A stretch of DNA of 64,000 nt from a virus. Both the position numbers and the translations under genes were made by a program. The notes under the pieces were generated by a model. It did no database searches, was not told the origin of the DNA, and worked only from the letters and a program-made list of their open reading frames with translations. The stretch lies in IMG/VR virus record IMGVR_UViG_3300025012_000054, positions 1-64,000 of that record; one strand, given 5' to 3'. Below, one piece after another: positions 346 to 62,493 of the stretch (within the stretch, counting starts at the first letter, position 1; each line of letters starts with the position of its first letter).

Positions 346-363
346 ATAAAAGTTAGATTTCAT
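346..363. repeat. boundary box ATRAAA-N6-TTTYAT
   Basis: ATAAAA, six free bases, TTTCAT. This is the first of 56 exact copies of an 18-bp interrupted palindrome that sits just upstream of the ribosome-binding site of most small genes in the window. Here it lies between a stop codon and the AAGGAA site of the gene at 383. Confidence 0.85.
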
Positions 364-382
364 TAACAGAAAGGAATAACAG

Positions 383-718
383 ATGCCCAAATATAATATC
401 AAGTTAGTAGATCCGCCAACCAATAAAGGCATATTATTTGAAGTAGACGGTACGGAATTAACCGATGTTCCTATCAGATGTTTTGTCCATCATAAAGTCT
501 TTGAAAATGAAATCATGAAATCTTGGATGGTATCGGAATTCTTTTCTGGTATGGCTATGACTTCAGAGTGGCCGACGAAAAACGCAGCCATAGATGCCGG
601 TCATAGGGTATTCGCTAAAATGCAATTGGCAGATATAAAAGAAATTGTAAATGGTCGTGTCAAAATATATGGATACGCTAATACCGATGGAACAGAAAGG
701 AGTAAGAAGAATGGATAG
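383..718 (+). CDS. hypothetical protein, 111 aa
   Basis: Starts with ATG after AAAGGAA and ends 8 nt inside the next gene, so translation is probably coupled. Basic/acidic mixed soluble protein with no motif I recognise. Confidence 0.7.
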   Translation: MPKYNIKLVDPPTNKGILFEVDGTELTDVPIRCFVHHKVFENEIMKSWMVSEFFSGMAMTSEWPTKNAAIDAGHRVFAKMQLADIKEIVNGRVKIYGYANTDGTERSKKNG

Positions 719-953
719 TTTTTACTCACCTGGTTTTGAGGCAAAATATCTCGAAAGATATCAAGAAATAGAATTTAGTGATGATGAACGATCTGTTAGA
801 ATTTTTGACGGTAAGTATATTCACCAGTTTCGCCAGTGGCTAGACAATTTGGATGATGAACTTAACAGGCGCAAGGTTTTGAATACCAATGGCGACCACG
901 AAGCACCAGAAGATATTTATGGTGCAGGAAAAATATCAGATAGTGTTGAATGA
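711..953 (+). CDS. hypothetical protein, 80 aa
   Basis: The ATG at 711 has AAAGGAG about 7 nt upstream, inside the end of the preceding gene; an in-frame ATG at 651 lacks a site, so 711 is preferred. Acidic soluble protein with an R-Q-W-L-D-N-L-D-D-E-L helix. The TGA stop lies within the left arm of a boundary box. Confidence 0.65.
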   Translation: MDSFYSPGFEAKYLERYQEIEFSDDERSVRIFDGKYIHQFRQWLDNLDDELNRRKVLNTNGDHEAPEDIYGAGKISDSVE

Positions 954-967
954 AATCAAAGTTTTAT
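950..967. repeat. boundary box overlapping a stop codon
   Basis: ATGAAA-N6-TTTTAT. The TGA of the left arm is the stop codon of the upstream gene, and the right arm runs directly into TAGGAGG, the ribosome site of the gene at 980. This is the commonest arrangement of the box. Confidence 0.85.
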
Positions 968-979
968 TAGGAGGATATA

Positions 980-1207
980 ATGGGAATGTTTGTTAGGGGA
1001 TTTCTTGTGGGTGTGACTTGTATGCTTGGTTTTGTTGCTCTTGTACCTACGGCTGAATCTAGGGAATTGACTAGATGTAAAGATGCGGTAATTGCAAATA
1101 TTCCCATTGTTTGGGAAGAAAATTATCCGTTTTGCAAAGTCGAAGTAACAATAAACGGTAAGGTCAAAGAGGTAACGCTTAAAGAGTTTTACGAATATAC
1201 TAAATAA
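980..1207 (+). CDS. small exported or membrane-anchored protein
   Basis: 75 aa. Residues 3-22 form a hydrophobic N-terminal segment after an initial Arg, followed by P-T-A-E-S, which looks like a signal peptide with possible cleavage near residue 27. The remainder is a small domain with two Cys that could form a disulphide outside the cytoplasm. Strong GGAGG site. Function unknown. Confidence 0.65.
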   Translation: MGMFVRGFLVGVTCMLGFVALVPTAESRELTRCKDAVIANIPIVWEENYPFCKVEVTINGKVKEVTLKEFYEYTK

Positions 1208-1221
1208 AATCATACTTTTAT
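1204..1221. repeat. boundary box
   Basis: ATAAAA-N6-TTTTAT. It shares the TAA stop of the preceding gene and is followed immediately by TAAGGAG for the next gene. Confidence 0.85.
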
Positions 1222-1233
1222 TAAGGAGAAAAA

Positions 1234-1419
1234 ATGACTGACAGAAGTGTCGATATTACTAAAATAATTTCACAGCTTGTATTAAATGAAATACTTTCTG
1301 GGAAAATCAAAACGCCCAAAGAAATTGAATGGCTAACATCTTACACGACGGAAGCACTATCTAGGATGCTTGCATATGTTATACAAATACAGGAAGAAAA
1401 GATCGACATAAAATCGTGA
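1234..1419 (+). CDS. hypothetical protein, 61 aa
   Basis: Small, mostly helical, soluble protein after an AAGGAG site. The stop TGA lies in the spacer of the boundary box at 1408-1425, so the box overlaps coding sequence here. No family recognised. Confidence 0.6.
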   Translation: MTDRSVDITKIISQLVLNEILSGKIKTPKEIEWLTSYTTEALSRMLAYVIQIQEEKIDIKS

Positions 1420-1438
1420 TTTTATTAAGGAGGTATGA

Positions 1439-1636
1439 ATGAACGGAATAATGAACACATTTCCAAATATAAACAAAATAACAGAAGAGATGGCTATTCT
1501 TCAAGAGGGATATGATATTCTTGAATCCTTGTACCTTGCCATGGATTCATACCACCCAGCGATTGATGGAAAACCAGTAGATACTGTTTTAGTAAACAGA
1601 ATGCAGAGGTTGTTTGGGTTTGATGACGGTGAATAA
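1439..1636 (+). CDS. hypothetical protein, 65 aa
   Basis: Follows TAAGGAGG. ATGs at 1435 (other frame), 1439 and 1451 compete; 1439 is chosen for spacing. Predicted helical and acidic; no recognised family. Confidence 0.6.
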   Translation: MNGIMNTFPNINKITEEMAILQEGYDILESLYLAMDSYHPAIDGKPVDTVLVNRMQRLFGFDDGE

Positions 1637-1663
1637 AATGAGGATTCTATTAAGGAGGTAATA

Positions 1664-2062: not shown

Positions 2063-2080
2063 ATGAAAGGAGTGTTTCAT
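2063..2080. repeat. boundary box with the ribosome site in its spacer
   Basis: ATGAAA-GGAGTG-TTTCAT. Here the six-base spacer itself supplies GGAG and the final AT of the right arm is the start of the ATG at 2079, so box, ribosome site and start codon are fused. Confidence 0.85.
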
Positions 2081-2315: not shown

Positions 2316-2498
2316 ATGGGAAAAATGTTTGTTGGTGCAATTTGGGGAGCAGTTTTAGTTTTATCCATCTGGGCCTTAACTGTTTATTCTTTAGAAAGTG
2401 ACAGTGCTTTATCTGTGCTTGCCGTGTTTGGTTTGATAGGCTGTGGAGTAGCGCTTGTATGTTTTGTCTTAAAATTGATAATCGATAATCGGGATTAA
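2316..2498 (+). CDS. small membrane protein, two TM segments
   Basis: 60 aa with two hydrophobic stretches (about residues 5-25 and 31-53) joined by a short acidic turn, ending in a charged tail. AAGGAG site 7 nt upstream. Probably an inner-membrane miniprotein; role unknown. Confidence 0.65.
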   Translation: MGKMFVGAIWGAVLVLSIWALTVYSLESDSALSVLAVFGLIGCGVALVCFVLKLIIDNRD

Positions 2499-2526
2499 TG
2501 AAACAGGCATTTTATGAGGAGGAATA

Positions 2527-2742
2527 ATGGTTAAATATTTTTGTGATATCTGTAAGAAAGAAGTAAGCAATCCCGCTATGTCTTTAGATATGGCCGGAAA
2601 GGTTTTGTGCCACGAACATTTCTACCAGGCGCGAGAAGCCATGCATAAAACAATTTATACCTATACTAAAGAGGTAACAGAATCACCGTGCGATAATTGC
2701 GATATAGATTATCCCAGTTGCAATAACTGTATCGGTGCATAA
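2527..2742 (+). CDS. zinc-binding small protein
   Basis: 71 aa with two CxxC-type clusters: an N-terminal CDICKKEV with CHEH further on, and a C-terminal CDNCDIDYPSCNNC. The N-terminal part looks like a treble-clef or LIM-like knuckle. Likely binds one or two zinc ions; partner unknown. Confidence 0.65.
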   Translation: MVKYFCDICKKEVSNPAMSLDMAGKVLCHEHFYQAREAMHKTIYTYTKEVTESPCDNCDIDYPSCNNCIGA

Positions 2743-2768
2743 AACAAGAGTTTCATGGAGAATAATTT

Positions 2769-3473
2769 ATGAAATATATGGGATCTAAAAATCGTCACGC
2801 CAAAGAACTTTTATCTATCATCCTTAAAGATAGAAAACCCAATCAATATTATGTAGAACCTTTTTGTGGCGGATGTAATCTTATCGACAAAGTATCTGGT
2901 AATAGAATAGCAAACGATATTCACTTTTATTTAATAGAAATGTTTAAGGCTTTGCAAAACGGATGGCAACCGCCCGACAATATTTCAGAAAAAGAATGGT
3001 ACGATATAAAAGACAATAAAGATAAATACGATTCACGGCTAGTTGGTTTTGTTGGTTTCGGGTGTTCTTTTTCTGGCAAATGGTTTGGAGGTTATGCGCG
3101 AGGAAATCAGAACAACGGGCTACCACGCAACTATTGTTCAGAAAGCAAGAGAAATGTTTTGGCGCAAGTCCAAGGATTGCAAGGAATAGAATTTTTTAAT
3201 AAAAATTATTGGGAATTAGAAATACCGCATAACAGCATTGTGTATTGTGATCCCCCTTATGAAAATACCACGAAATACAAAGATTCTTTTGATCATAAAA
3301 AATATTGGGATTGGGTTAGGTTTGTTGCAAGAAGTGGTAGTAAGGTTTATTGTTCGGAATATGTCGCGCCAAATGATTTTGCTTGTGTGTGGTCAAAAAA
3401 GGTTAACAACACGCTAGATTTGAATACTGGTGCAAAACAGGGGTGGGAAAAACTGTTTGTTTTTACACAATGA
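2769..3473 (+). CDS. D12-class DNA adenine N6-methyltransferase (Dam-like)
   Basis: 234 aa, a little short for the Dam/DpnM family. The N-terminal MGSKNR matches the family's G-x-K SAM-binding start, FCGGCN near residue 40 is motif I (usual F-x-G-G-G), and DPPY near residue 160 is catalytic motif IV. It should transfer methyl from SAM to N6 of adenine in a short DNA site. No partner nuclease lies next to it, so it is an orphan methylase, probably protecting phage DNA from host restriction or marking it. Boundary boxes flank it. Confidence 0.88.
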   Translation: MKYMGSKNRHAKELLSIILKDRKPNQYYVEPFCGGCNLIDKVSGNRIANDIHFYLIEMFKALQNGWQPPDNISEKEWYDIKDNKDKYDSRLVGFVGFGCSFSGKWFGGYARGNQNNGLPRNYCSESKRNVLAQVQGLQGIEFFNKNYWELEIPHNSIVYCDPPYENTTKYKDSFDHKKYWDWVRFVARSGSKVYCSEYVAPNDFACVWSKKVNNTLDLNTGAKQGWEKLFVFTQ

Positions 3474-3499
3474 AAGACGAATTTTATTGAGGAGGTCTT

Positions 3500-4585: not shown

Positions 4586-4617
4586 CATAATAAAAGATTC
4601 GTTTCATGGAGTAATTA

Positions 4618-5312: not shown

Positions 5313-5684
5313 ATGGGAACGATTGAATTTTACGGCAAGCAAATGGATGATGTAGCCACTCTGAATACCGACACTATATTGGCATACAAAAAAGTTGTAC
5401 CCCATGCTTGTCATTGCGGAAAGCATGAGGATGATTATGTATCTGATTTTGGTGAATGGCAACCTGTTTTAGATCATAATCATACCTGGCAAGTTGTTAC
5501 ACTGCTCGAAAATTTTGGTTATACCGGATATGATTACGACACTGTTTTTTACACATTTTATCTGCAAGTTCCAGAATGTGCAAAACACGGCGAGTTTAAA
5601 TATGAGGGTGATGGGCTAAATTTTGGTCAAGCAGTTTGCAACACTCTGATTAAATTTGCCAGAGATTATAAATTTAGTAAATGA
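5313..5684 (+). CDS. hypothetical protein, 123 aa
   Basis: First gene after promoter P1. ATG at 5313 has AAAGGA 6 nt upstream; reading further upstream would place the promoter in the coding region, so this start is chosen. Contains CHCGKH and C-A-K-H-G clusters that might bind metal. No recognised family. Confidence 0.7.
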   Translation: MGTIEFYGKQMDDVATLNTDTILAYKKVVPHACHCGKHEDDYVSDFGEWQPVLDHNHTWQVVTLLENFGYTGYDYDTVFYTFYLQVPECAKHGEFKYEGDGLNFGQAVCNTLIKFARDYKFSK

Positions 5685-5698
5685 AAGAAGGATTTTAT
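5681..5698. repeat. boundary box with the ribosome site in its spacer
   Basis: ATGAAA-GAAGGA-TTTTAT, with the upstream TGA stop in the left arm and the next ATG two bases after the right arm. The spacer GAAGGA is the only plausible ribosome site for the gene at 5700. Confidence 0.85.
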
Positions 5699-5936: not shown

Positions 5937-6170
5937 ATGTATTATAAAATACACTGTATGGCTAAAGACTTTTTAGGAAAACCCGAAATTCTATGTGGAA
6001 CACCTGCTGCTAATTATTTTGCAGTTCACGATCAGGACGTAACGTGTCGAAGATGTAAAAACTCCATGGGCATTATCCATAAAATTCCAAAAAACAAGAT
6101 AATCTCTTGCATAGAATGTGGAGAAAAACATATACACAAAACCTGTTGTAGTAAATTTACTCAGGATTAA
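5937..6170 (+). CDS. zinc-ribbon-like small protein
   Basis: 77 aa. CRRCK near the middle and CIECGEKH...CC near the C-terminus make two zinc knuckles. A GTG three bases upstream (5934) is a possible alternative start; ATG 5937 fits the GAGAG site better. Confidence 0.6.
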   Translation: MYYKIHCMAKDFLGKPEILCGTPAANYFAVHDQDVTCRRCKNSMGIIHKIPKNKIISCIECGEKHIHKTCCSKFTQD

Positions 6171-6185
6171 TAAAAGGATGATTTC

Positions 6186-6527
6186 ATGAGAAATGATTTT
6201 GACTTATCTTGGGGTGATATTATAGATATGTGTCACACTTGGGGCGTTTTTACCAGTCTGTCCTCAATCGTATTCGCAAAGGTTACACCGAAAGACACCC
6301 TTGAAGACCGGCTGACAAAGTTTGAGAAAAAATTATCCGAAACAACAAAGTTTCTAAGCAGTGTTTCAAATCAACTGAGTCAAAATAGTTTTTTAGCAAA
6401 TGCTCCAGACGATATTGTGAAGGGAAGAATTGATCAGTTGATGGAATTAGAAGAAACATATGAGGCGCAGTCTCACTTAGTTGATATGTTGAGATTTGCG
6501 AATCAATATAAATTACAGGAAGGGTGA
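6186..6527 (+). CDS. hypothetical helical protein, 113 aa
   Basis: ATG overlaps the right arm of the boundary box at 6170-6187, whose spacer carries GGATGA. Long amphipathic helix/coiled coil likely over residues 35-70 (L-x6-L spacing, K/E rich). Function unknown. Confidence 0.65.
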   Translation: MRNDFDLSWGDIIDMCHTWGVFTSLSSIVFAKVTPKDTLEDRLTKFEKKLSETTKFLSSVSNQLSQNSFLANAPDDIVKGRIDQLMELEETYEAQSHLVDMLRFANQYKLQEG

Positions 6528-6834: not shown

Positions 6835-6986
6835 TGTGTAAAATTAAAATAAAACAATTATTGTGTAAACACCCTTCTTTAGAAGAGGTTGTCGCAGTTC
6901 TTTGGGCTCTTATGATTATGATATTGATGGTTTGGGCGCTAGAGAAACCAGTTTCAATAATCTTAATGTGGCTGTTTGGCGTATAA
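6831..6986 (+). CDS. small membrane protein, 51 aa
   Basis: Starts in the stop of the preceding gene (ATGATG). Residues 20-35 and 41-50 are strongly hydrophobic (V-V-A-V-L-W-A-L-M-I-M-I-L-M-V-W). Ends with TAA inside a boundary box (6983-7000). Probable single-span membrane miniprotein. Confidence 0.6.
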   Translation: MMCKIKIKQLLCKHPSLEEVVAVLWALMIMILMVWALEKPVSIILMWLFGV

Positions 6987-7010
6987 AATAAGTCTTTTAT
7001 AAGGAGAAAA

Positions 7011-7166: not shown

Positions 7167-7262
7167 TTGTTGTTGGTATTAGATTTATACACCGATATTG
7201 CCGTAAGAATCTTAGAATTTGTGGAAATGAAAAAAGAAGAAGATAAAATCAGCGTTTCATGA
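7167..7262 (+). CDS. possible 31-aa protein from TTG start
   Basis: The gap between two boundary boxes holds an open frame from TTG with AAAGAGA just upstream; it ends with TGA at the right arm of the box at 7243-7260, exactly as neighbouring genes do. Predicted helical. The unusual start and small size keep this tentative. Confidence 0.35.
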   Translation: MLLVLDLYTDIAVRILEFVEMKKEEDKISVS

Positions 7263-7268: not shown

Positions 7269-7520
7269 ATGAATAAGCCAACAAGAAATCCAGAGTATGA
7301 TAAACAATTAAAAATCTATAATAGTGCGTTTGGTAGGCATCAGTCCATGGGAATAGTTTCAAAAAAAATAACTACCAAAGAAGAAATGCTTGTGGCTTTT
7401 GAACAAATGAAAATCGAATGGGATAAATTGATGGAAATTAATCTGTTTATAGAATGTACGGAATGTGGTGTTGAAAAATCAAAATGTATTGACTGTATTT
7501 ATGCTTTTTACGGTAAATAA
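7269..7520 (+). CDS. hypothetical protein with CxxC pairs, 83 aa
   Basis: GAGGAAG site. C-terminal C-T-E-C-G and C-I-D-C form a likely zinc knuckle; the N-terminal two-thirds is helical and basic. No recognised family. Confidence 0.6.
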   Translation: MNKPTRNPEYDKQLKIYNSAFGRHQSMGIVSKKITTKEEMLVAFEQMKIEWDKLMEINLFIECTECGVEKSKCIDCIYAFYGK

Positions 7521-7558
7521 AATAGTTGTTTTATGAAGCAGAATAAAAGGAGAAGAAA

Positions 7559-7754: not shown

Positions 7755-7772
7755 ATAAAATGATTGTTTCAT
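7755..7772. repeat. boundary box
   Basis: ATAAAA-N6-TTTCAT followed by GAGGAG. This A-left/C-right form is the most frequent of the four variants. Confidence 0.85.
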
Positions 7773-7782: not shown

Positions 7783-7965
7783 ATGAATAAATTAGAATGG
7801 ATTGAAGAACTTGCTAGGATTAGCAAAATGTCAAAGCAGGAACGCCTTGCTTATGATCTTGAGCAGATACCAAAGATCCACTGGAGCGACGATGAAGAAT
7901 ATGTGGTATTCGTTGATCGTAAACTTGATGTTTTAATTGGTTCTTTGATGGAGTTTTTATCATAA
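7783..7965 (+). CDS. hypothetical protein, 60 aa
   Basis: ATG 7783 sits 6 nt after GAGGAG; the ATG at 7771 contains that site and is rejected. Helical acidic protein with no recognised motif. Confidence 0.6.
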   Translation: MNKLEWIEELARISKMSKQERLAYDLEQIPKIHWSDDEEYVVFVDRKLDVLIGSLMEFLS

Positions 7966-8004
7966 AACAATTCTTTTATGTGGTAGATAAAATATTAGTT
8001 TTAT
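7962..8004. repeat. tandem boundary boxes without a gene between
   Basis: Boxes at 7962-7979 and 7987-8004 are separated by only seven bases (GTGGTAG), a remnant of a ribosome site. This is what would remain if recombination between two boxes removed the gene between them. Confidence 0.75.
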
Positions 8005-8015: not shown

Positions 8016-8231
8016 ATGGAAATCATTCAATACAGCAACTATATAAATTTCAACCCAGACTGGTTTGATCCAACCATAGAAAAAGTATTTTTCGTTGAAA
8101 ATTTTGATGATAAATATGTGCGTGGTTTTAAATGGAATTATAATAATAACAATAAAATTCCAGTTAGAATATCTATGAAGAAATTCTTATCTGAATATCA
8201 ACCAAAACCAGAATTGGATTTTGGTGAATGA
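8016..8231 (+). CDS. hypothetical protein, 71 aa
   Basis: GAGGTG site 7 nt upstream. Asn/aromatic-rich (N-Y-N-N-N-N-K-I-P), compact beta-type sequence. No family recognised. Last gene before promoter P2. Confidence 0.6.
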   Translation: MEIIQYSNYINFNPDWFDPTIEKVFFVENFDDKYVRGFKWNYNNNNKIPVRISMKKFLSEYQPKPELDFGE

Positions 8232-8255
8232 AATCAACATTTCAAGTGAATGAAC

Positions 8256-8322: not shown

Positions 8323-8366
8323 TATAACGTAATAAAATTATACTTTCATGAGGAGACAATAGTTCA

Positions 8367-9163: not shown

Positions 9164-9414
9164 CTAAGATGAAATATGAAGACCGCCACGATTTATTTCC
9201 GGACACCGTGATTATATCCTATCCTTTTCGATGGGGAGGGCAAAGAGGAGATGTTTGGATGTGGATGGCAGAAATGAACGGTGAGGTTTTAGACTATCAC
9301 AGCAAAGACATATTGATCATAAATGCTATTCTTGCAAATGAAAAATATGTGGTTTTACGAGTTCATAAAGATAAAGATATGACAATTACAGTAGTGGAAC
9401 ATAATGAAAACTAG
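9160..9414 (+). CDS. hypothetical protein, 84 aa
   Basis: GTG at 9160 gives a GTGA overlap with the upstream stop; ATG 9169 is an alternative start. Aromatic-rich N-terminus (F-R-W-G-G-Q-R-G-D-V-W-M-W-M) then alternating strand/helix. The stop lies in the boundary box at 9404-9421. Confidence 0.6.
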   Translation: MTKMKYEDRHDLFPDTVIISYPFRWGGQRGDVWMWMAEMNGEVLDYHSKDILIINAILANEKYVVLRVHKDKDMTITVVEHNEN

Positions 9415-9432
9415 ATTTCATGAGGAGACACA

Positions 9433-9621: not shown

Positions 9622-9651
9622 CATAAAATTATCATTTTATAAAGGAGAAAA

Positions 9652-9828
9652 ATGAGAACTGAACTATTGGTCAAGCTAGAAAAAAACTTGTTAGAGTTTC
9701 TTGACGAGGCAAGCGGAGAATATTTTATACAAGTCAAAGAAGAACAGGTTCTTGCCAAAATTGTCGCAGATATTATAGAATCTATAAACAACGCTTATGA
9801 TACTGGCATAGAAGACGAATCATCATAA
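9652..9828 (+). CDS. hypothetical helical protein, 58 aa
   Basis: AAAGGAG site 6 nt before ATG. Acidic, helical (L-L-V-K-L-E-K-N-L-L-E-F-L). Bounded by boxes at 9623-9640 and 9828-9845, exactly like its neighbours, which supports it as a real gene. Confidence 0.55.
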   Translation: MRTELLVKLEKNLLEFLDEASGEYFIQVKEEQVLAKIVADIIESINNAYDTGIEDESS

Positions 9829-9856
9829 TAAAATGCACATTTCATAAAGGAGAGAT

Positions 9857-10429: not shown

Positions 10430-10458
10430 ATAAAATCTTTATTTTATGAGGTAAAAAA

Positions 10459-34574: not shown

Positions 34575-34599
34575 AAGTAAAATTTTATTAGGAGATATT

Positions 34600-36017: not shown

Positions 36018-36039
36018 AATAACTGTTTCATAAGGTTTC

Positions 36040-36869: not shown

Positions 36870-36892
36870 AATGACCGTTTTATGAGGATGAT

Positions 36893-37699: not shown

Positions 37700-37721
37700 A
37701 AGGTGGATTTTATGAGGTGGT

Positions 37722-38108: not shown

Positions 38109-38115
38109 TTTTATT

Positions 38116-38274: not shown

Positions 38275-38286
38275 AAGAGATATTTT

Positions 38287-38496: not shown

Positions 38497-38508
38497 AAGG
38501 AAGATTTC

Positions 38509-38685: not shown

Positions 38686-38697
38686 AAGGAGTATTTC

Positions 38698-39099: not shown

Positions 39100-39134
39100 A
39101 ATAGCGATTTTATTGTATAAAATGAGTGTTTCGT
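39096..39134. repeat. tandem boundary boxes without a gene between
   Basis: Exact box 39096-39113 followed after three bases by a near-exact one at 39117-39134 (right arm TTTCGT). Another possible cassette-loss scar, just before a methylase paralogue. Confidence 0.65.
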
Positions 39135-39728: not shown

Positions 39729-40196
39729 ATGAATTATGAAACCACAGCAGAAATGGAAATTGTTATTGCTAGATATTTTGATACTAGAAAAAACGTTATT
39801 GTTCCAAATGTAAGCCACGGCATGTTTAGATATGAAATGGATTTATGTATGCTTAATATGGTTGGAATGTATGCAAGCGAAGTGGAAATAAAAATTTCTA
39901 AATCAGATCTAAAAGCAGACGCTAAAAAACCACATCACCACGATTGCGCATCTATAAAATATCTGTGGTTTGCTATGCCTGAAAAATTAAAAGGCTGTGA
40001 GGAATATGTACCAGAACATGCAGGAATTTTATTTGTAAGTAGTAAGGGTATTGTTAGTGTTGCGAGAAAACCTGTATCTAATAAATCTGCACAAAAATGG
40101 GACTATAAAAAAGCATTCAGATTAGCCAGGTTAGGAACATTACGAGTTTGGAATTTGAAAGAATCCATTCATCGGATGATAAAATATAATAAATAA
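39729..40196 (+). CDS. PD-(D/E)XK nuclease-like protein
   Basis: 155 aa. Y-E-M-D-L and S-E-V-E-I-K-I-S-K-S-D-L spell the D-x(n)-E-x-K core of restriction-type folds similar to MmcB-like repair nucleases, followed by basic helices. It may cleave or repair DNA. Neighbouring methylases on both sides raise the possibility of a restriction-modification link, but spacing gives no proof. Confidence 0.55.
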   Translation: MNYETTAEMEIVIARYFDTRKNVIVPNVSHGMFRYEMDLCMLNMVGMYASEVEIKISKSDLKADAKKPHHHDCASIKYLWFAMPEKLKGCEEYVPEHAGILFVSSKGIVSVARKPVSNKSAQKWDYKKAFRLARLGTLRVWNLKESIHRMIKYNK

Positions 40197-40223
40197 AATC
40201 GGTATTTTATTAAAAGGAGAAAA

Positions 40224-40478
40224 ATGCAAAGATTTCAATTGAAAAAAGATAGCAAGAACAAATGGTTTATTTTCGATAATCAGCGCAAGACCGTTGTTAC
40301 AAGCCATATGGCTACTGGTATGGAGGGAGCAGAAACCTTAAAAGTTATCAAAACACTGCCTGAACCATTGCCTAAAATTAAAGAAGCGACTACCAATAAT
40401 GAACGAGTAGTAGCAGGACGATCTAAGAAAATGAAGATTTCTGTTGAAGAATACCGACGCAGGTTTCCGAAATCATAA
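40224..40478 (+). CDS. basic hypothetical protein, 84 aa
   Basis: AAAGGAG site. Lys/Arg-rich with W-F-I-F-D-N beta strand at the N-terminus and a basic C-terminal helix (S-K-K-M-K-I-S-V-E-E-Y-R-R-R). May bind nucleic acid. Confidence 0.55.
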   Translation: MQRFQLKKDSKNKWFIFDNQRKTVVTSHMATGMEGAETLKVIKTLPEPLPKIKEATTNNERVVAGRSKKMKISVEEYRRRFPKS

Positions 40479-40506
40479 TAAAATGCAAGTTTCATGAGGT
40501 GAATTA

Positions 40507-41538
40507 TTGAACTACGATGAGATTATAAATACACCATATACTGTTCTGGAAGCATTATCAGAATCTGAAATTTACGATATTGTTTCAACTCTGATTGAAC
40601 ATTACCGTAAAACCGGATTTCCTTATTTTGAAATCGATGACAACAAGATTAAAAAAGAATGTTTGTCTTTATCAAAATCAGACAGTTCAAAAATAGAATT
40701 GCCAAATAATGAACTTCAACAGGGAATGTTGGGACTTGCAACATGCAACATGTTTCATCAAGAAATGTATGCTGTAAATTGTAAAAACGCAAAATCACCC
40801 ATGGATATTTTTCTTGATGATGGTCTATTCCGTACCGCCCTAACGAAAAGAATCAAGTATAATGATCGCAATCTTAATCCCTCGTGTGTGCGCAGAACGT
40901 TGAGTGCTTTTGGCGGACAAGCTGCTTCAAATTTTAGACCATCTATTGCCAGGTGGGTTTACCAAAAATATGCTCCAATTGGTGGCAGCGTCTTAGATCC
41001 CTGTATGGGATATGGCGGAAGATTGATGGGTGCGTTTTGTTCTCAGGTGCGTCGCTATGTTGCAACAGATCCAAACAAGGTTTCTATTGCTGGGAATATC
41101 AATCTGCACAATCATTTGTTCGAGGCTCGCCCAGACAGACCGGTTTTTGAATTATCAACTTCTGCCCTACCTTTTGAGGATTTTGTCACCGATGAGAAAT
41201 TTGATTTGGTGTTTACGTCGCCACCATATTTTAATGTGGAAAAGTATGCCGCAGATGAAAAACAATCTTATGCGAGATACCCAACATACGAAAAATGGGT
41301 GGAAGGATTTTTGACGCCATTAATCAATCATTCTTTCGATTACCTAAAACCCAATGGATATTTGGTTCTCAACGTAGGAAAGCCGATTGACGAAGATACG
41401 TATAGAATAGGCACAAAAGTTTTTGGCAAAGAACCTGAAACTTATCACATGCGATTGAGTAAGTTTTTAGGACAAGGAAATAAAAAAGATGTATCGCATA
41501 AAGTTGAACCGATTTTTGTGTGGAAAAAGACCACATAA
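40507..41538 (+). CDS. DNA methyltransferase with SPPY motif
   Basis: 343 aa from TTG with GAGGTG upstream. V-L-D-P-C-M-G-Y-G-G-R (motif I), A-T-D-P-N (motif II) and T-S-P-P-Y-F-N (motif IV, about residue 238) fit N4-cytosine/N6-adenine MTases of the D-N/S-P-P-Y class. The N-terminal 130 residues could be target recognition. Orphan: no adjacent restriction gene. Confidence 0.8.
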   Translation: MNYDEIINTPYTVLEALSESEIYDIVSTLIEHYRKTGFPYFEIDDNKIKKECLSLSKSDSSKIELPNNELQQGMLGLATCNMFHQEMYAVNCKNAKSPMDIFLDDGLFRTALTKRIKYNDRNLNPSCVRRTLSAFGGQAASNFRPSIARWVYQKYAPIGGSVLDPCMGYGGRLMGAFCSQVRRYVATDPNKVSIAGNINLHNHLFEARPDRPVFELSTSALPFEDFVTDEKFDLVFTSPPYFNVEKYAADEKQSYARYPTYEKWVEGFLTPLINHSFDYLKPNGYLVLNVGKPIDEDTYRIGTKVFGKEPETYHMRLSKFLGQGNKKDVSHKVEPIFVWKKTT

Positions 41539-41573
41539 AACCCACATTTCATAACATGAAACTAAAATTTCAT
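41535..41573. repeat. tandem boundary boxes without a gene between
   Basis: Boxes at 41535-41552 and 41556-41573 are only three bases apart. Another possible cassette-loss scar, after the methyltransferase gene. Confidence 0.75.
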
Positions 41574-42550: not shown

Positions 42551-42581
42551 TGTTAATGAAATTGTGCTTTTATTAAGTTTG

Positions 42582-43944: not shown

Positions 43945-44499
43945 ATGAAAAATAAATATATTATCGAAAACGGTATAATAAAAATAATTCTCCATAGGCG
44001 AGAAGACAATGATTTAATAACGATTATTGATAAAGAAGATTTTGATAAAGTGAACGCATATGATGGTACGTTTTATGCTAGTAGATATATTAAACTAAAT
44101 GGGAAATTTTATGTAAAAATAACCTTATATCTAGGAACCATTGACGGAAAACCGAAATATAAAGTAATTAGGTTTCATAGGATTATTTTGAATTGTGAAA
44201 ACAACGATATTGTTGATCATATAAATGGAGACACTCTAGATAACCGAAAATCCAATCTAAGAATAACTGATTTTGGAGGAAACACAAAAAACAGATGTGG
44301 CGAGAACGCAAATAACACTTCTGGTGAACGCAACGTGTCTCTTATAAATGGGCAGTACGTAGTTCAAATTCAAGTCAATGGAAAAAATACTGTTTTAGGA
44401 AAATTTAATAATATCGAACAAGCGAGAATTATAGCAAACCAAGCAAGAAAAAAGTATTATGGGGACTATTCTGGAAATAGTACCACAATAGCCCAATAA
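43945..44499 (+). CDS. HNH homing endonuclease with AP2-like DNA-binding end
   Basis: 184 aa. R-F-H-R-I-I-L-N...V-D-H-I-N-G-D-x-L-D-N-R-K-S-N-L-R is the HNH_3 core, followed by N-T-K-N-R and N-x-S-G-E-R-N-V...V-Q-I-Q-V-N-G-K...L-G-K-F, an AP2-type recognition domain. Such free-standing enzymes spread between phages at conserved genes; rtcB next door may be its home. GGAGG site. Confidence 0.85.
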   Translation: MKNKYIIENGIIKIILHRREDNDLITIIDKEDFDKVNAYDGTFYASRYIKLNGKFYVKITLYLGTIDGKPKYKVIRFHRIILNCENNDIVDHINGDTLDNRKSNLRITDFGGNTKNRCGENANNTSGERNVSLINGQYVVQIQVNGKNTVLGKFNNIEQARIIANQARKKYYGDYSGNSTTIAQ

Positions 44500-44526
44500 A
44501 AGTATTATTTTATTAAGGAGCAAAAA

Positions 44527-44769
44527 GTGAAAATATATAGATTGTATACCGGATGCGATGGTGAATACTCCTGCGATTATTATAGGGGTTTGTTTAAAAC
44601 AGTTGAACCTATGCTCTCTTTTGTAGAAGAATATATGAAAGAAGAAAGAGGCAAAGAAAATATCTCTGCTATATTAACTGATGATGGAAAAATATTCGTC
44701 AACGGTATTGATAACGAATGGCACAATCCTTTCGGATATGAGATTATTGATACTGACAACTTGCAATGA
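44527..44769 (+). CDS. hypothetical protein, 80 aa
   Basis: GTG start after AAGGAG. Compact alpha-beta protein with G-C-D-G-E-Y-S-C-D near the N-terminus. No family recognised. Confidence 0.55.
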   Translation: MKIYRLYTGCDGEYSCDYYRGLFKTVEPMLSFVEEYMKEERGKENISAILTDDGKIFVNGIDNEWHNPFGYEIIDTDNLQ

Positions 44770-44794
44770 AATTATTATTTTATAAGGAGAAAAA

Positions 44795-45452: not shown

Positions 45453-45521
45453 CAACATAAAATAGTATTTTTATTAGGTTGCACATATTTGTAGTAAGTC
45501 TATTTATAAAAGGAGAAATAA

Positions 45522-53107: not shown

Positions 53108-53142
53108 TTAGATAATAAAATAAGACTTTTATGTGGAGGAAA

Positions 53143-53531: not shown

Positions 53532-53993
53532 ATGGACATAAAATCGGGCAACGGATACCCTTCTTCTGCTCTATCAAATTTTGCTCCCCATCCATTCGAA
53601 ATCGATGGTGTTAAGTGCTCAAGCATGGAAGGATTTTTACAATCGCTAAAATTTGAAAATCCAGAAATGCAAAAACACGTTTGCACACTCGTGGGGATGC
53701 AGGCAAAATATAAAGGCAAAGATAAGAAATGGTGGAAAACTCAAACTCTCTGGTGGCAAGGCAAAGAAATTGATAGGCACAGCCAAGAGTACCAAGACCT
53801 GCTGGACAGAGCATATAACGAGATTTCTAAAAACACCGGTTTCCAACGTGCTTTGTTGGCTACAAAGGATTCATCCATTACTCATTCTATAGGAAAGTCA
53901 GATGCCAGTCACACAGTCTTGACACAACGAGAATTTTGTGGTAGACTTGAAAAGATAAGAAAAATCCTACAGGATAAAACTAGCGTTTCATGA
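53532..53993 (+). CDS. NADAR-domain protein
   Basis: 153 aa. L-S-N-F-A-P-H-P-F-E-I-D-G-V-K-C-S-S-M-E-G-F-L-Q (residues about 14-37) followed by K-W-W-K...W-W-Q-G-K-E-I and a late L-L-A-T-K-D. This is the phage branch of the NADAR superfamily. Characterised members remove ADP-ribose from nucleobases, including reversal of DarT-type DNA ADP-ribosylation. A counter-defence or NAD-metabolism role is inferred. A boundary box overlaps its end. Confidence 0.78.
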   Translation: MDIKSGNGYPSSALSNFAPHPFEIDGVKCSSMEGFLQSLKFENPEMQKHVCTLVGMQAKYKGKDKKWWKTQTLWWQGKEIDRHSQEYQDLLDRAYNEISKNTGFQRALLATKDSSITHSIGKSDASHTVLTQREFCGRLEKIRKILQDKTSVS

Positions 53994-54002: not shown

Positions 54003-54221
54003 ATGAGATACGCACAAATTCATTCAGGAAATAAACTACATTTAGTCTATGAGCCAGGCGAAGGCGTTGATGATCAGCACCTTGTAAAAGCGGGGTATGT
54101 ATCTGCCCCTCTTTGCGGACAAAAATTCGAGGGCAATTATCGAATGACTATTAATGTTCCTCTTGCCCATGCTTGTAAAAGATGTTTAAAAGTTTATAAT
54201 AAAAGGAATCTTTTATCATGA
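54003..54221 (+). CDS. small zinc-binding protein, 72 aa
   Basis: GAGGTG site. L-C-G-Q-K and H-A-C-K-R-C-L-K-V-Y carry three Cys and two His that could hold zinc. No recognised family. Confidence 0.55.
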   Translation: MRYAQIHSGNKLHLVYEPGEGVDDQHLVKAGYVSAPLCGQKFEGNYRMTINVPLAHACKRCLKVYNKRNLLS

Positions 54222-54565: not shown

Positions 54566-54760
54566 ATGGACAAACTATTTTGGAAATATGACAAAAACTT
54601 AAAGGCATATATCATTTATTATGACAAGCCCTGGCCAAAACCATATGCTGGCGACATTACGGAAGTCTGGCGATTAGCGATGGAGCCAAACCGCTTTAAC
54701 GAACTTACCGTGGACGAAATTGTTCAAGCGCTTAATCACTATAAAATGGTAGTTTCATAA
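54566..54760 (+). CDS. hypothetical protein, 64 aa
   Basis: ATG 54566 after TGGAGT. W-K-Y-D-K-N-L-K-A-Y-I-I-Y-Y and P-W-P-K-P-Y patterns; aromatic-rich. No family recognised. Confidence 0.55.
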   Translation: MDKLFWKYDKNLKAYIIYYDKPWPKPYAGDITEVWRLAMEPNRFNELTVDEIVQALNHYKMVVS

Positions 54761-55033: not shown

Positions 55034-55299
55034 TGCCATATGTTAAAAAAGAATTAGACAAGTTACAAGATCATGTTTCTGATTTTGGCTGGGAATTAAA
55101 TTCAGTAGAGTTTGACTTAGATATGCTGCCCGACATCGAAGAACCTTCTGAAATGGAGTTGGCTGAAGCCGACGAGGTAGCGTTGTCATATGCGATTTCG
55201 GCATATTTTAGAAATCATTTTATCGGCTATGACAATAAAGGCGAGCCTAAATGGAATATAGGCAAGAAAAAACAAGCACTATTAAGAAAATTTAGTTAA
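55033..55299 (+). CDS. acidic hypothetical protein, 88 aa
   Basis: TAATG overlap with the previous gene. Helical, acidic N-terminal 45 residues, basic end. No family recognised. Confidence 0.55.
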   Translation: MPYVKKELDKLQDHVSDFGWELNSVEFDLDMLPDIEEPSEMELAEADEVALSYAISAYFRNHFIGYDNKGEPKWNIGKKKQALLRKFS

Positions 55300-55326
55300 T
55301 AAAAGCAATGTTTTATGAGGTAAAAT

Positions 55327-56973: not shown

Positions 56974-57175
56974 AGACAAATTTAAAAATCTGAGAAATAG
57001 TATCGTTGATTTTAAATATATAAGCGCGGAAGAAGCACTAAGCCGTATCATTCTATTATGCGGAGAGGAAGAAGTTATTAATTATTTTTGGACATATTAT
57101 GGACAAAAATTTTTACCGTTTAGCTTCGAAACCTTTCTCGACGAAAATCAGCAACATAAAAGGACTATTTTATGA
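56963..57175 (+). CDS. hypothetical protein, 70 aa
   Basis: ATG 56963 after AAGGTGG, overlapping the previous gene by 11 bp and the next by 4 bp. Helical acidic with F-W-T-Y-Y-G-Q-K. No family recognised. Confidence 0.55.
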   Translation: MEHEDKFKNLRNSIVDFKYISAEEALSRIILLCGEEEVINYFWTYYGQKFLPFSFETFLDENQQHKRTIL

Positions 57176-58038: not shown

Positions 58039-58084
58039 CGTCTTGATAAAACGTGGATTTCATTATATAAAAAAGGAGAATAAA

Positions 58085-58300
58085 ATGAAAAAACAAAAAG
58101 TAATTGCCACTAAGAATTTTGGTGCTCGTAGCCCCATACTAATGACAGCAGTTGCATATTTATTTCTAGATAAGTTTAATGCTGTTGGATGGGTGTGGGG
58201 AGTTGTTGCCACTTTATTTGTAATACTTTGGATTGGATATTTTGTTACTCTCGCTACAAGTGATCCGGTGGATATTTTTGAAGATAAAAAACCTACATAA
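58085..58300 (+). CDS. small membrane protein, 71 aa
   Basis: AAAGGAG site. Residues 17-32 and 35-55 are hydrophobic (M-T-A-V-A-Y-L-F-L, V-G-W-V-W-G-V-V-A-T-L-F-V-I-L-W), with a basic start and an acidic end: two TM segments. Function unknown. Confidence 0.6.
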   Translation: MKKQKVIATKNFGARSPILMTAVAYLFLDKFNAVGWVWGVVATLFVILWIGYFVTLATSDPVDIFEDKKPT

Positions 58301-58340
58301 TAAAACACGAATTTTATTATAACGTAAAGGAGAAATAGAT

Positions 58341-59291: not shown

Positions 59292-59319
59292 ATAAAAGAT
59301 TACTTTCATGAGGTGAATA

Positions 59320-60120
59320 TTGAATAAAAATTCCAACAAATTAAATTTAGATCAATATTATACATCTGAAGAAACTGCCTCCTATTGTCTATCTGTTGCT
59401 CGTAAAGTTCTCAAAAACGAAAAAATCTCGGAAGTAATTGAACCATCTGCTGGCAATGGAGTGTTTAGTAAAAAAATTAAAAATTGTATTGCATATGACA
59501 TTGATCCAAAAGATGAATCTATCCTTCAACAAGATTTTTTACAACTGAACATGCCGTATAAAACAGGCAGACTTTTTATAGGAAATCCTCCTTTTGGCAC
59601 TAGAAATACATTATCTGTAAAATTTTTTAAAAAGTGTATCCAATTAGGTGATTACGTGGCTTTTATTTTACCCATCAGTCAATTAAACAATACTCAACAA
59701 ATGTATGAATTTGATTTAATACACAGCGAAGATTTGGGCGATAAATTTTATACAGATAGGAATCTGCATTGTTGTTTTAATATCTACAAAAAACCAGGCA
59801 ATGGAAATAACCAAAAGAAAAAATACCAGTTCAAGGATTTTAAAGTTACAGAATATCGCCGAGGAGGAAGTTATAAGAAACCAGAAAATTATGACATTGG
59901 GTTTTGTGCTTGGGGACATTTAGGGAAAAAGATAGATTTTGTAGGACAATACGCACAAGAATTATATGTTATTGTATACAATGATAAGTTTAAATCAAAG
60001 ATATTAGAATTATTAACAGAAGAAAACTTAAAAAATATTAAATCACAGATAAGTACTCCCAAACTACAAGCATGGAGAATTTATGAATATATCAAATCTA
60101 ACATACCTGAAATTATATAA
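59320..60120 (+). CDS. DNA N6-methyltransferase-like protein, copy 3
   Basis: 266 aa from TTG after GAGGTG. L-D-Q-Y-Y-T-S, I-E-P-S-A-G-N-G-V-F-S (motif I), A-Y-D-I-D-P-K (motif II) and G-N-P-P-F-G (motif IV, residue about 88). Longer than copies 1 and 2, with a C-terminal extra domain that may recognise DNA. Close to Eco57I/N6-MTase class by motif order. Confidence 0.78.
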   Translation: MNKNSNKLNLDQYYTSEETASYCLSVARKVLKNEKISEVIEPSAGNGVFSKKIKNCIAYDIDPKDESILQQDFLQLNMPYKTGRLFIGNPPFGTRNTLSVKFFKKCIQLGDYVAFILPISQLNNTQQMYEFDLIHSEDLGDKFYTDRNLHCCFNIYKKPGNGNNQKKKYQFKDFKVTEYRRGGSYKKPENYDIGFCAWGHLGKKIDFVGQYAQELYVIVYNDKFKSKILELLTEENLKNIKSQISTPKLQAWRIYEYIKSNIPEII

Positions 60121-60147
60121 TAAAATCACACTTTCATGGAGTAAAAT

Positions 60148-60339: not shown

Positions 60340-60746
60340 TGTATAATTACCTCGCGGATATTATCGACAAATTAGGTGAACCAATTTGGTGGGATTCCGA
60401 AGCAGCTATTCCTAGGTATTGCCAATTCCATCCAGACGAGTTAAATAATATTTATGCCAAGGAAGCCGCATTAATATTAATTGAATGTCAGAATTGTGGG
60501 CATCGATTTAAAATATCAGAAGATTGGGAAATAATGGATGCCGTCCGTAATCGCAAACGCTTATCCGAAAGCATTAAGGAGGGATATACGTTGGGGTACG
60601 CAGATCCACCAAATATTAGATGCTGTGGTTCGGGGCCGACAATGACTTCCAACGTATTAAAAATCTTGGAATTTTGGAAATACGGTGAAGAAACAGGATA
60701 TTATTGGGCAAGATGCCCAGAATTAGAAATAATATTTGAACCATAA
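60339..60746 (+). CDS. conserved phage zinc protein (GEPIWWDSEA type)
   Basis: 135 aa, TAATG overlap. G-E-P-I-W-W-D, I-P-R-Y-C-Q-F-H-P-D, I-Y-A-K-E-A-A-L-I-L-I-E-C-Q-N-C-G-H-R-F and C-C-G are those of an uncharacterised protein common in phages. The Cys positions fit zinc. Role unknown. Confidence 0.68.
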   Translation: MYNYLADIIDKLGEPIWWDSEAAIPRYCQFHPDELNNIYAKEAALILIECQNCGHRFKISEDWEIMDAVRNRKRLSESIKEGYTLGYADPPNIRCCGSGPTMTSNVLKILEFWKYGEETGYYWARCPELEIIFEP

Positions 60747-60769
60747 AATAAATGTTTCATGAGGTAAAT

Positions 60770-60949
60770 ATGGAAAATATAATTATTAGGGGATTCAAAC
60801 AATGTTTGCATTGTGGCGACTATGCTCCATATTCTGATTTTACCCTTGACGACAGAGAATGCGACTGGTGTGTTCGAGAACAGGAAGAAGACGATGAAAG
60901 AAACTATGAACGGCAAGAGTCAATACGAATTGGTGAAACGATTTTATAA
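60770..60949 (+). CDS. zinc-ribbon-like protein, 59 aa
   Basis: ATG 60770 after GAGGTAA. C-L-H-C-G-D-Y-x4-Y-x-D-F and C-D-W-C-V-R form the CxxC pair typical of short zinc ribbons; acidic C-terminus. Confidence 0.6.
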   Translation: MENIIIRGFKQCLHCGDYAPYSDFTLDDRECDWCVREQEEDDERNYERQESIRIGETIL

Positions 60950-60984
60950 TAAAAGGATTTTTTTATTACAAAAGGAGATTGTTT

Positions 60985-61194
60985 ATGGTTAAAAGAATGT
61001 TATCATTTTTATGGGGGCTCATGGTTGGTATTTCTATCCTTCAAACCATTCATTATCCAGTCGCCGTATCAGAGGATGGGGCTAACATTGTTGATGGTTG
61101 GAGCTTTTTTTGCTATTCAGTTATTATAGTTTCTTTTGTAACAATATTTATGTTTGCTTTGAAGCATATAGTTGAACATTGGGACGACAAATAA
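60985..61194 (+). CDS. small membrane protein, 69 aa
   Basis: AAAGGAG site. Residues 5-25 (L-S-F-L-W-G-L-M-V-G-I-S-I-L-Q) and 42-60 (F-F-C-Y-S-V-I-I-V-S-F-V-T-I-F) hydrophobic, with polar loop between: two TM. Confidence 0.6.
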   Translation: MVKRMLSFLWGLMVGISILQTIHYPVAVSEDGANIVDGWSFFCYSVIIVSFVTIFMFALKHIVEHWDDK

Positions 61195-61208
61195 AATGAA
61201 TATTTTAT
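61191..61208. repeat. boundary box
   Basis: ATAAAA-N6-TTTTAT sharing the TAA stop of the gene before; TAAGG follows as the ribosome site for the lipoprotein-like gene. Confidence 0.85.
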
Positions 61209-61219
61209 AAGGATAATAA

Positions 61220-61501
61220 ATGAAAAAAATTATATTGATAGTTGCTATATTGTGCGCATTGCTTTGTTCTTGTTCTAAGAATCCACCAGATTTTTGTTAT
61301 GGAGATTCGTTGGGAAAAATTGTTTCATTAGATATGAAGATGGGAGCATTCAATTCTTCAGATTATCTTATCATAAATCTAGATAGTGGTGATCAATATG
61401 TTCTTCCATCCGCTGGAAGAATTCATAGTACAAATGAGTTTTTATTTTATGATAAGGATTGCTCACCACATTATTATATATCAACAGATAGAGAACGATA
61501 A
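61220..61501 (+). CDS. lipoprotein-like exported protein
   Basis: 93 aa. M-K-K-I-I-L-I-V-A-I-L-C-A-L-L-C-S-C-S-K has the lipobox L-C-S-C (modified Cys at residue 18), pointing to an outer- or inner-membrane anchored lipoprotein in a Gram-negative-like host. The mature part is beta-rich with cysteines. May act in surface exclusion, but that is inference. Confidence 0.7.
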   Translation: MKKIILIVAILCALLCSCSKNPPDFCYGDSLGKIVSLDMKMGAFNSSDYLIINLDSGDQYVLPSAGRIHSTNEFLFYDKDCSPHYYISTDRER

Positions 61502-61526
61502 AATAGGTATTTCATAAGGAGATAAT

Positions 61527-61772
61527 ATGAGTCAAAGATATGAGGATTCGCTTGATAACCTCGATATAAAAACTGATTTAGAAATGCTACCCCATAGAGG
61601 TCAATTGCCGAAATTAGGTGAACTACCTGAAGGTCATTATTTTGTTTATTGGCGTAATCATACAGATGAATATTACGAAAGTATTGAAACCAAGAGTCGG
61701 GACACAATCAAAAAAGCAGTTGGTGTTTGGAATAAAACCATAAAGAAACTAAATAAAACACTCGTTTCATAA
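61527..61772 (+). CDS. hypothetical protein, 81 aa
   Basis: AAGGAG site. G-H-Y-F-V-Y-W-R-N-H-T-D-E-Y-Y-E-S beta hairpin then a basic helix (V-W-N-K-T-I-K-K-L-N-K). No family recognised; ends inside a boundary box. Confidence 0.55.
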   Translation: MSQRYEDSLDNLDIKTDLEMLPHRGQLPKLGELPEGHYFVYWRNHTDEYYESIETKSRDTIKKAVGVWNKTIKKLNKTLVS

Positions 61773-61783
61773 GGAGAACGATA

Positions 61784-61984
61784 TTGATAGGATCAATTCT
61801 TAGTTACGACGACATCTCATTTTTATACGATGAATATTTGAAAACAGAAGATATAAATTTATTCGTCAAAAATACAGATGGCAAATTTAGAGTAAACCGA
61901 TCTGAATTGGAAATGATATGGCAAGCCTTCGATAAGGTTAGCGAATATCATCCGAGAAAGCAGTGGTGGAGCGACTCATGGTAA
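61784..61984 (+). CDS. hypothetical protein, 66 aa
   Basis: TTG start after AAGGAG. Acidic, helical; C-terminal W-W-S-D-S-W. Overlaps the next gene by 7 bp. Confidence 0.5.
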   Translation: MIGSILSYDDISFLYDEYLKTEDINLFVKNTDGKFRVNRSELEMIWQAFDKVSEYHPRKQWWSDSW

Positions 61985-62202
61985 AATTTTATCACGAACT
62001 CACAATAGGTGAAAGATTCGATATTTATAATATGCGAGTGTCTTGGGACAGGACGGCTAAAAAACATCCACAACCTCCGTGGTGTGGGCACGAGAACGCC
62101 GTTGACGGATTACTGGGATGCGACGATCTGGTGATTCTGGGAACTGTAAAATCAGAAGCAGATTGTGAAAATTGTCCACTTCATAAAGGAGAGAAATTAT
62201 GA
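61978..62202 (+). CDS. small CxxC protein, paralogue of the gene at 55327
   Basis: 74 aa, ATG 61978 within the previous gene. F-Y-H-E-L-T, V-S-W-D...P-Q-P-P-W-C, G-L-L-G-C-D-D-L and C-E-N-C-P-L-H correspond to the 55327 product in the same order. Metal binding likely. Confidence 0.62.
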   Translation: MVKFYHELTIGERFDIYNMRVSWDRTAKKHPQPPWCGHENAVDGLLGCDDLVILGTVKSEADCENCPLHKGEKL

Positions 62203-62468
62203 TTACGCCAAAAGAGGCATATGATCAATCAACTGTGTCGAAAAAAGAAGTGATGGATAGATTTGAAATCGAAAATCCTGAAATTATAGAGAAAATTGAA
62301 ATAGCCATTGACGAAGGCATAAACAGCGGTAAGATCTATACCTATTTTGATTCTATAGGCTATAGTTCGGACAAAGTTAAAGAAATTACCGATTATCTTC
62401 ACTTTCTTGGCTATGATGCAGAGCATAATTTGCAGAGAGAATCTATTTGGATAAATTGGTCACAATAA
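62199..62468 (+). CDS. hypothetical protein, 89 aa
   Basis: ATGA overlap. Acidic, helical (V-S-K-K-E-V-M-D-R-F, I-E-K-I-E-I-A-I). Its end carries a boundary box. No family recognised. Confidence 0.55.
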   Translation: MITPKEAYDQSTVSKKEVMDRFEIENPEIIEKIEIAIDEGINSGKIYTYFDSIGYSSDKVKEITDYLHFLGYDAEHNLQRESIWINWSQ

Positions 62469-62493
62469 AATTTACATTTCATAAGGACATATA

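Follow-up and report, generated by a model that had tools for sequence, protein, structure and literature searches.

The window analysed here, a 64,000-nucleotide stretch covering positions 1 to 64,000 of the IMG/VR virus record IMGVR_UViG_3300025012_000054, carries many copies of a palindromic box of 18 base pairs (bp), ATRAAA-N6-TTTYAT, which is very probably a site of site-specific recombination with its six variable central bases (N6) acting as the 6-bp overlap. Judging from the sequences compared, the phages of the SPβ lineage are likely to possess an address-coded genome, in which tens of mutually incompatible sites would bear population-wide 6-bp codes, a phage recombinase would swap single cassettes slot for slot with gene order kept, and accessory and counter-defence genes (e.g., nip) would be traded.

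According to the proposed mechanism two partner boxes, each with the inverted arms ATRAAA and TTTYAT, would have to match in N6. As all N6 of an array would be different, non-palindromic, and free of reverse complements, a box could neither delete nor invert against its neighbours, but would cross over with its counterpart of equal address when another phage is present in the same cell, and two crossovers at two matching addresses would swap the intervening gene cassette or cassettes. The outcome would be an array of numbered slots where order is kept while small early genes turn over. Such exchange would take place during co-infection or in polylysogens. The enzyme would belong to the tyrosine recombinases, since the length of N6 equals the 6-bp overlap of Xer proteins, and binding and cleavage of the boxes by such an enzyme are predicted.

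Number and Placement of the Boxes

The sequence-only reading had reported at least 56 exact copies with a chance expectation below one, and both statements hold. All 56 listed starts were exact matches when the window was rechecked, while the exact total is 62, the matches at 27393, 45457, 53115, 54199, 54741, and 57156 having been missed; Markov-simulated sequences of order 1, 3, and 5 gave means of 0.37-0.73, far below this count. The only named near variant that was compared (2279) is matched by an intact box at the aligned position in a relative. In the complete record (91,455 bp) there are 65 boxes and no match to the pattern read backward. Being identical to its reverse complement, the box has no strand, and each match counts on both. 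Its symmetric 6-bp half-sites are inverted around a spacer of fixed length (4 matches with a gap of 5 and none with a gap of 7 in the window, both gaps being at background in the scan of the lineage genomes), and this arrangement corresponds to the inverted arms and 6-8 bp overlap of an Xer/dif-like site.

The position beside ribosome sites of small genes, also noticed in the first reading, is confirmed: the ribosome site directly follows the box, and boxes occupy 22 of the 28 gaps of 25-35 nucleotides between co-directional early genes versus 2 of the 19 gaps on the late (minus) strand. They are concentrated in the short co-directional gaps of the rightward half with its early, replication, and small genes, are very few in the leftward structural module (66-91 kilobases, kb), and seldom occur in the divergent gaps that harbour promoters. 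Tandem boxes only 3-7 nucleotides apart were found at 7962-8004, 34779-34821, and 41535-41573, two of these pairs with ribosome-site-like remnants between the boxes; they look like emptied slots, and at the place of the first pair a relative holds 1.6 kb. Heterotypic arm pairs (A/C or G/T) are more frequent than expected in the record (p=0.028) and in its relative G009 (p<0.001), perhaps because a combination of one half-site of A type with one of G type is preferred.

The record is assigned by sequence to the SPβ lineage because it has tape measure, structural-module, and replication genes in common with SPβ and large IMG/VR phages. De novo motif search ranked the box core TRAAA-N6-TTTYA first or nearly first among the dyads in almost all lineage genomes examined, including that of SPβ, and the same boxes are present in SPβ and φ3T. 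In 19 genomes 23-84 core copies per genome were counted (0-13 for the backward-read control), although most IMG/VR records had been chosen for at least one box followed by AGGAG, which biases genome frequencies; the within-genome tests of N6 are independent of that selection. The pattern scan detected no box above background in TR-TP1 (Thomasclavelia), barely an excess in G003, and no matching box in Lactococcus φL47. A primase-protein search of IMG/VR found no relatives, and a nucleotide search among named phages gave no match.

The Proposed N6 Code within Genomes

If N6 is the overlap of a site with symmetric arms, then duplicates should be avoided as a source of deletion, reverse complements as a source of inversion, and palindromes because of the loss of orientation. 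Among 974 core boxes of the 19 genomes identical N6 pairs within a genome numbered 1 versus 14.7 expected from column shuffles, reverse-complement pairs 0 versus 12.5, and palindromic N6 1 versus 21.3; a position-specific Markov null for the same boxes gave expectations of 33, 13, and 21, respectively. This avoidance is what overlap identity in a tyrosine-recombinase site would predict. The control 6-mers beside the box were not depleted of duplicates (60 versus 36 expected on the 5' side and 172 versus 48 on the 3' side) or of reverse complements (10 versus 10 and 16 versus 6), and their palindromes were mildly low (11 versus 19 and 9 versus 15). In the window alone there are no duplicates, reverse complements, or palindromes (1.5, 1.2, and 1.6 expected; P=0.01), and five further named SPβ-group phages have no duplicate and no reverse-complement N6. 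Duplicates with one mismatch are depleted too (156 versus 219 expected in the 19 genomes), chiefly for mismatches at positions 2-4, hinting that the enzyme tolerates some mismatches.

Shared Addresses and Probable Crossovers between Phages

At the beginning recombination was regarded as excluded by the variation of N6, and this view was dropped as N6 proved to be common to different phages slot by slot. The record and G009 (51 kb, 50 boxes) have 18 N6 in common versus 2.3 expected, and all 18 are collinear. Of these boxes 10 have no homology in either 150-bp flank, while in another 5 homology reaches the box on one side only. One (27393), located within a conserved gene and with both flanks homologous, is a case of ordinary descent and may be no functional site. 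In the independent pair G001-G010 there are also 18 common N6, 15 of them collinear and 14 of these 15 with both flanks unrelated; further pairs share 11 (10 collinear; G001-G036), 10 (8; G010-G036), and 10 (9; G001-G002). Between SPβ, φ3Ts, SPR, SPbetaL4, and Goe11 each pair has 15-28 collinear addresses in common, and summed over these pairs, which are not independent, 86 addresses have both flanks homologous, 77 one flank, and 55 neither. One box reads TGATAA in SPβ (NC_001884 99497) and its reverse complement TTATCA in φ3T (KY030782 89340), as if the box or the slot had been inverted.

Homology between phages also tends to end at the boxes. In the SPβ group 103 of 1118 homology ends lie at most 12 bp from a box centre versus 8.0 expected, and homology switches more often at box junctions (38:20) than at non-box early junctions (72:101; odds ratio 2.7, p=0.002, with pairs that are not independent). 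Boxes delimit eight homologous segments on either side, among them a 3.2-kb SPβ/φ3T segment, 99.97% identical, between the boxes TGTAAG and GTAAAA. In slots with one homologous flank a difference confined to the arm on the unrelated side was seen 17 times and one confined to the opposite arm 3 times (p=0.0026). Arm differences thus follow the unrelated flank, so that the crossover falls between the arms, within N6, as in a tyrosine-recombinase site.

An example of a traded slot may be given by φ3T (KY030782), where nip, a counter-defence gene, and the adjacent phi3T_121 lie at 83282-84650 between the addresses GATAGT and TATTTA, while the same slot of SPβ is only about 360 bp long and holds yoqT. 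The nip gene was discovered through the selection of φ3T-SPβ hybrids (PMC11984713).

Candidate Recombinases

The likely box recombinase is a YomM-family tyrosine recombinase encoded outside the window. As SPβ integrates by a serine recombinase (PMC8270828), YomM is left without a known role. Of the 19 examined genomes with a structural module 18 encode a member of its clade, and only the box-less TR-TP1 does not. The catalytic R, K, H, and Y are invariant in 16 members, unlike in MrpR, the tyrosine-recombinase-fold repressor of SPβ; the protein matches PF00589 and the catalytic R-K-H-R-H/W-Y pattern is recognizable. The clade profile has its best matches in XerA, XerC, XerD, and XerH, with one better-scoring chain filed under another molecule name. 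The AlphaFold2 model of YomM (predicted local distance difference test score 88) matched XerH-difH, XerA, IntI, and Cre complexes in Foldseek with probability 1.00 and query template modelling scores of 0.45-0.64.

It is possible, though less probable, that box recombination proceeds as proposed but is performed by a second, early-region tyrosine recombinase (P0001, 308 amino acids, in the window; YopP in SPβ) or by host Xer. P0001 keeps all catalytic residues, YopP-type proteins keep most of them, and Xer proteins use 6-bp overlaps (PMC13141974). However, P0001 and YopP fall into separate clades of patchy distribution, whereas YomM is present wherever structural module and boxes coexist. P0001 is probably an integrase.

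Several observations weigh against exchange at the boxes by YomM. Alignments running through the common 18 bp could yield part of the breakpoint signal, and the phage pairs compared for breakpoints are not independent. The three sequenced laboratory φ3T-SPβ hybrids (Hyb1-3) join inside long shared segments, where ordinary homologous recombination explains the junctions, and for this reason they were dropped as direct proof of box exchange; another hybrid (PP526179) showed no difference from its parent within the stretch read. The second catalytic R of YomM is K in SPβ, G025, and G036, and yomM lies in the late module while the boxes flank mostly early genes. In addition, a relative of YomM is encoded by Lactococcus φL47, where such boxes are absent, so that YomM may not be the box enzyme or may use other sites there.

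Alternative Explanations

The classical view of lambdoid phages includes the exchange of modules at short conserved boundaries, and the box might similarly be a short conserved linker for homologous or single-strand-annealing recombination by a Sak4-type annealing protein, when N6 would be preserved by any exchange. SPβ does have a Sak4-like protein, YorG, and the junctions of the laboratory hybrids fit this explanation as well. Nevertheless, it is improbable, because partner boxes, whose arms differ, often agree without interruption over only 12-14 bp, and annealing gives no cause for the avoidance of reverse complements and palindromes in N6, nor for the near-identical arms at every slot in distant phages.

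Even less probable is a function as operator or "stoperator," where a repressor on the palindrome in each gap would block transcription, as in cluster A mycobacteriophages or by MrpR at SPBRE. The dyad symmetry, the many copies in short gaps upstream of ribosome sites, and the presence in SPβ of a repressor with tyrosine-recombinase fold (PMC10516654) agree with it. However, SPBRE is a different motif (ATACA-N7-TGTAT) recovered separately de novo, so the identity of the box with SPBRE was rejected, and MrpR, for which the window record and several box-rich genomes of the lineage gave no match, was rejected as box binder by its distribution; the boxes do not belong to the SPBRE/MrpR system. Operators also need no unique, non-palindromic centres kept slot by slot amid unrelated genes, and the boxes are uncommon in the divergent gaps where promoters are located.

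A promoter for the YonO RNA polymerase or a phage-specific factor is hardly credible and was rejected. Although 17 of 21 lineage genomes encode a YonO-type polymerase and boxes stand just upstream of genes, there is no box at the mapped YonO start (PMC5467207), which corresponds to SPBc2 60451 by the coordinates in PMC8270828; YonO is absent from three genomes with boxes and present in the box-less TR-TP1; boxes are rare before late genes, and the ribosome site follows the box directly. An RNA hairpin or mRNA-processing site before the Shine-Dalgarno sequence, where the box does lie, is equally implausible, and an RNA stem was rejected as the general function, since the R and Y positions do not covary in 529 boxes (A-T 240, A-C 142, G-T 90, and G-C 57; odds ratio 1.07, p=0.76), which means that no stem is under selection, and the A-C pair would break it in 27% of them.

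Thus, among the four readings offered initially the recombination junction is strongly supported, though in the unforeseen form of slot-specific 6-bp addresses; mRNA processing fails as a general function and the late promoter is unlikely, while a regulator site is conceivable as a second function but does not account for unique, non-palindromic, collinear N6.

Features of the Window

The boxes and both recombinase genes are collected in Table 1. A sugar-nucleotide/glycosyltransferase cluster at 13719-30875, partly common to G009 and G023, has no boxes in its gene gaps and one in-gene match (27393). The window also encodes an RNA-repair set (3500-4585, 10459-11373, 11346-12734, and 42761-43918) including RNA ligase, RlaP-type nucleotidyltransferase, a CCA/poly(A)-polymerase-type protein, and RtcB, with which a tRNA-Met at 42024-42096 is grouped.

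Table 1. Boxes and recombinase genes in window coordinates. Strand "." denotes the palindromic motif; the basis is an exact motif match in the window unless stated; "G009 same" means that the identical N6 is present in the relative G009, with which flanks were compared.
Feature	Position	Strand	N6	Basis and comparison
Box	346..363	.	GTTAGA	G009 same; left flank homologous, right unrelated
Box	950..967	.	TCAAAG	G009 same; both flanks unrelated
Box	1204..1221	.	TCATAC	G009 same; both flanks unrelated
Box	1408..1425	.	TCGTGA	G009 same; both flanks unrelated
Box	2063..2080	.	GGAGTG	G009 same; both flanks unrelated
Box	2498..2515	.	CAGGCA	G009 same; both flanks homologous
Box	2739..2756	.	CAAGAG	G009 same; left flank homologous, right weak
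Box	3470..3487	.	GACGAA	motif match
Box	4590..4607	.	GATTCG	G009 same; both flanks unrelated
Box	5681..5698	.	GAAGGA	G009 same; both flanks unrelated
Box	6170..6187	.	GGATGA	motif match
Box	6983..7000	.	TAAGTC	G009 same; both flanks unrelated
Box	7243..7260	.	TCAGCG	G009 same; both flanks unrelated
Box	7517..7534	.	TAGTTG	motif match
Box	7755..7772	.	TGATTG	G009 same; right flank homologous, left unrelated
Box	7962..7979	.	CAATTC	tandem with 7987; motif match, G009 alignment
Box	7987..8004	.	TATTAG	G009 same; right flank homologous, left unrelated
Box variant	8228..8245	.	TCAACA	core match, outer base changed; G009 same; left flank homologous, right unrelated
Box	8332..8349	.	TTATAC	G009 has TTCTAC; left flank homologous
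Box	9404..9421	.	ACTAGA	G009 same; both flanks unrelated
Box	9623..9640	.	TTATCA	motif match
Box	9828..9845	.	TGCACA	G009 same; both flanks unrelated
Box	10430..10447	.	TCTTTA	G009 same; left flank homologous, right unrelated
Motif match inside coding sequence 27158-27982	27393..27410	.	GTGGTA	G009 same; both flanks homologous
Box	31440..31457	.	GCAACA	motif match
P0001, second tyrosine recombinase	32125..33051	+		catalytic residues intact
Box	33257..33274	.	CCTATC	motif match
Box	33464..33481	.	GACTGA	motif match
Box	34205..34222	.	TCTTGA	motif match
Box	34571..34588	.	GTAAAA	motif match
Box	34779..34796	.	TTGAAC	tandem with 34804; motif match
Box	34804..34821	.	CAATAA	motif match
Box	36014..36031	.	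TAACTG	motif match
Box	36866..36883	.	TGACCG	motif match
Box	37696..37713	.	GGTGGA	motif match
Box	38097..38114	.	CGGTGA	motif match
Box	38271..38288	.	GAGATA	motif match
Box	38493..38510	.	GGAAGA	motif match
Box	38682..38699	.	GGAGTA	motif match
Box	39096..39113	.	TAGCGA	motif match
Box	40193..40210	.	TCGGTA	motif match
Box	40478..40495	.	TGCAAG	motif match
Box	41535..41552	.	CCCACA	tandem with 41556; motif match
Box	41556..41573	.	CTAAAA	motif match
Box	42556..42573	.	TTGTGC	motif match
Box	44496..44513	.	GTATTA	motif match
Box	44766..44783	.	TTATTA	motif match
Box	45457..45474	.	TAGTAT	motif match
Box	53115..53132	.	TAAGAC	motif match
Box	53974..53991	.	CTAGCG	motif match
Box	54199..54216	.	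GGAATC	motif match
Box	54741..54758	.	TGGTAG	motif match
Box	55299..55316	.	GCAATG	motif match
Box	57156..57173	.	GGACTA	motif match
Box	58046..58063	.	CGTGGA	motif match
Box	58300..58317	.	CACGAA	motif match
Box	59292..59309	.	GATTAC	motif match
Box	60120..60137	.	TCACAC	motif match
Box	60743..60760	.	TAAATG	motif match
Box	60949..60966	.	GGATTT	motif match
Box	61191..61208	.	TGAATA	motif match
Box	61498..61515	.	TAGGTA	motif match
Box	61753..61770	.	CACTCG	motif match
Box	62465..62482	.	TTTACA	motif match
YomM-family tyrosine recombinase	genome 80,919-81,932 (L006:919-1932), outside window	-		preferred candidate

Comparison with Known Systems

Short conserved sequences at module borders that are linked to mosaicism are represented by lambdoid boundary sequences and T4-type PeSL cassettes; these are homology-driven, consist of few or promoter-bearing elements, and have no overlap code per slot. 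In integrons (IntI/attC) a tyrosine recombinase likewise moves small cassettes bounded by inverted-repeat sites; however, attC sites are folded single strands, entry occurs at one attI, and there is no address, whereas in the phages the slot would be set by N6 and no single point of entry exists.

Within the same phages SPBRE is also a repeated dyad bound by a protein with tyrosine-recombinase fold, but it comprises about ten promoter sites with a near-constant centre serving repression without recombination, and differs in motif and protein distribution (PMC10516654). The stoperators of cluster A mycobacteriophages are similarly present in many copies across the phage genome, while they share a single fixed, asymmetric sequence to which the immunity repressor binds, with no variable address (PMC9283540), a pattern that the boxes with their varied N6 do not fit.

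The closest precedent is found in the XerCD pdif modules of Acinetobacter plasmids. In Rep_3 plasmids gene modules lie between short tyrosine-recombinase sites (pdif/dif) with 6-bp spacers and shuffle between replicons, and sites with identical or near-identical spacers recombine (PMC13141974). The pdif arms are distinct 11-bp XerC and XerD arms served by host enzymes, and such arms are not seen in the phage boxes, which have short symmetric arms and likely a phage-encoded enzyme. Identical spacers recur in one plasmid and lead to inversions and deletions, in contrast to the tens of mutually different spacers in the ordered array of the phages.

A literature search, with preprints and many subscription papers outside its coverage, revealed no description of these boxes, and as far as the searched literature shows ordered, non-redundant addresses are undescribed.

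Significance

The mosaic genomes of phages are generally attributed to illegitimate or homologous recombination with subsequent selection, while in a large group of phages, which includes SPβ and φ3T, the sequences argue that exchange is the task of a dedicated system with an error-proof code. If true, this would explain the turnover of unrelated small early genes at fixed positions and give a role to the orphan recombinase YomM; the slots would then be a direct route to accessory genes of defence and counter-defence, and tens of candidate orthogonal recombination sites would become available for genetic engineering. As SPβ and φ3T are laboratory phages, the system is open to direct testing in B. 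subtilis 168.

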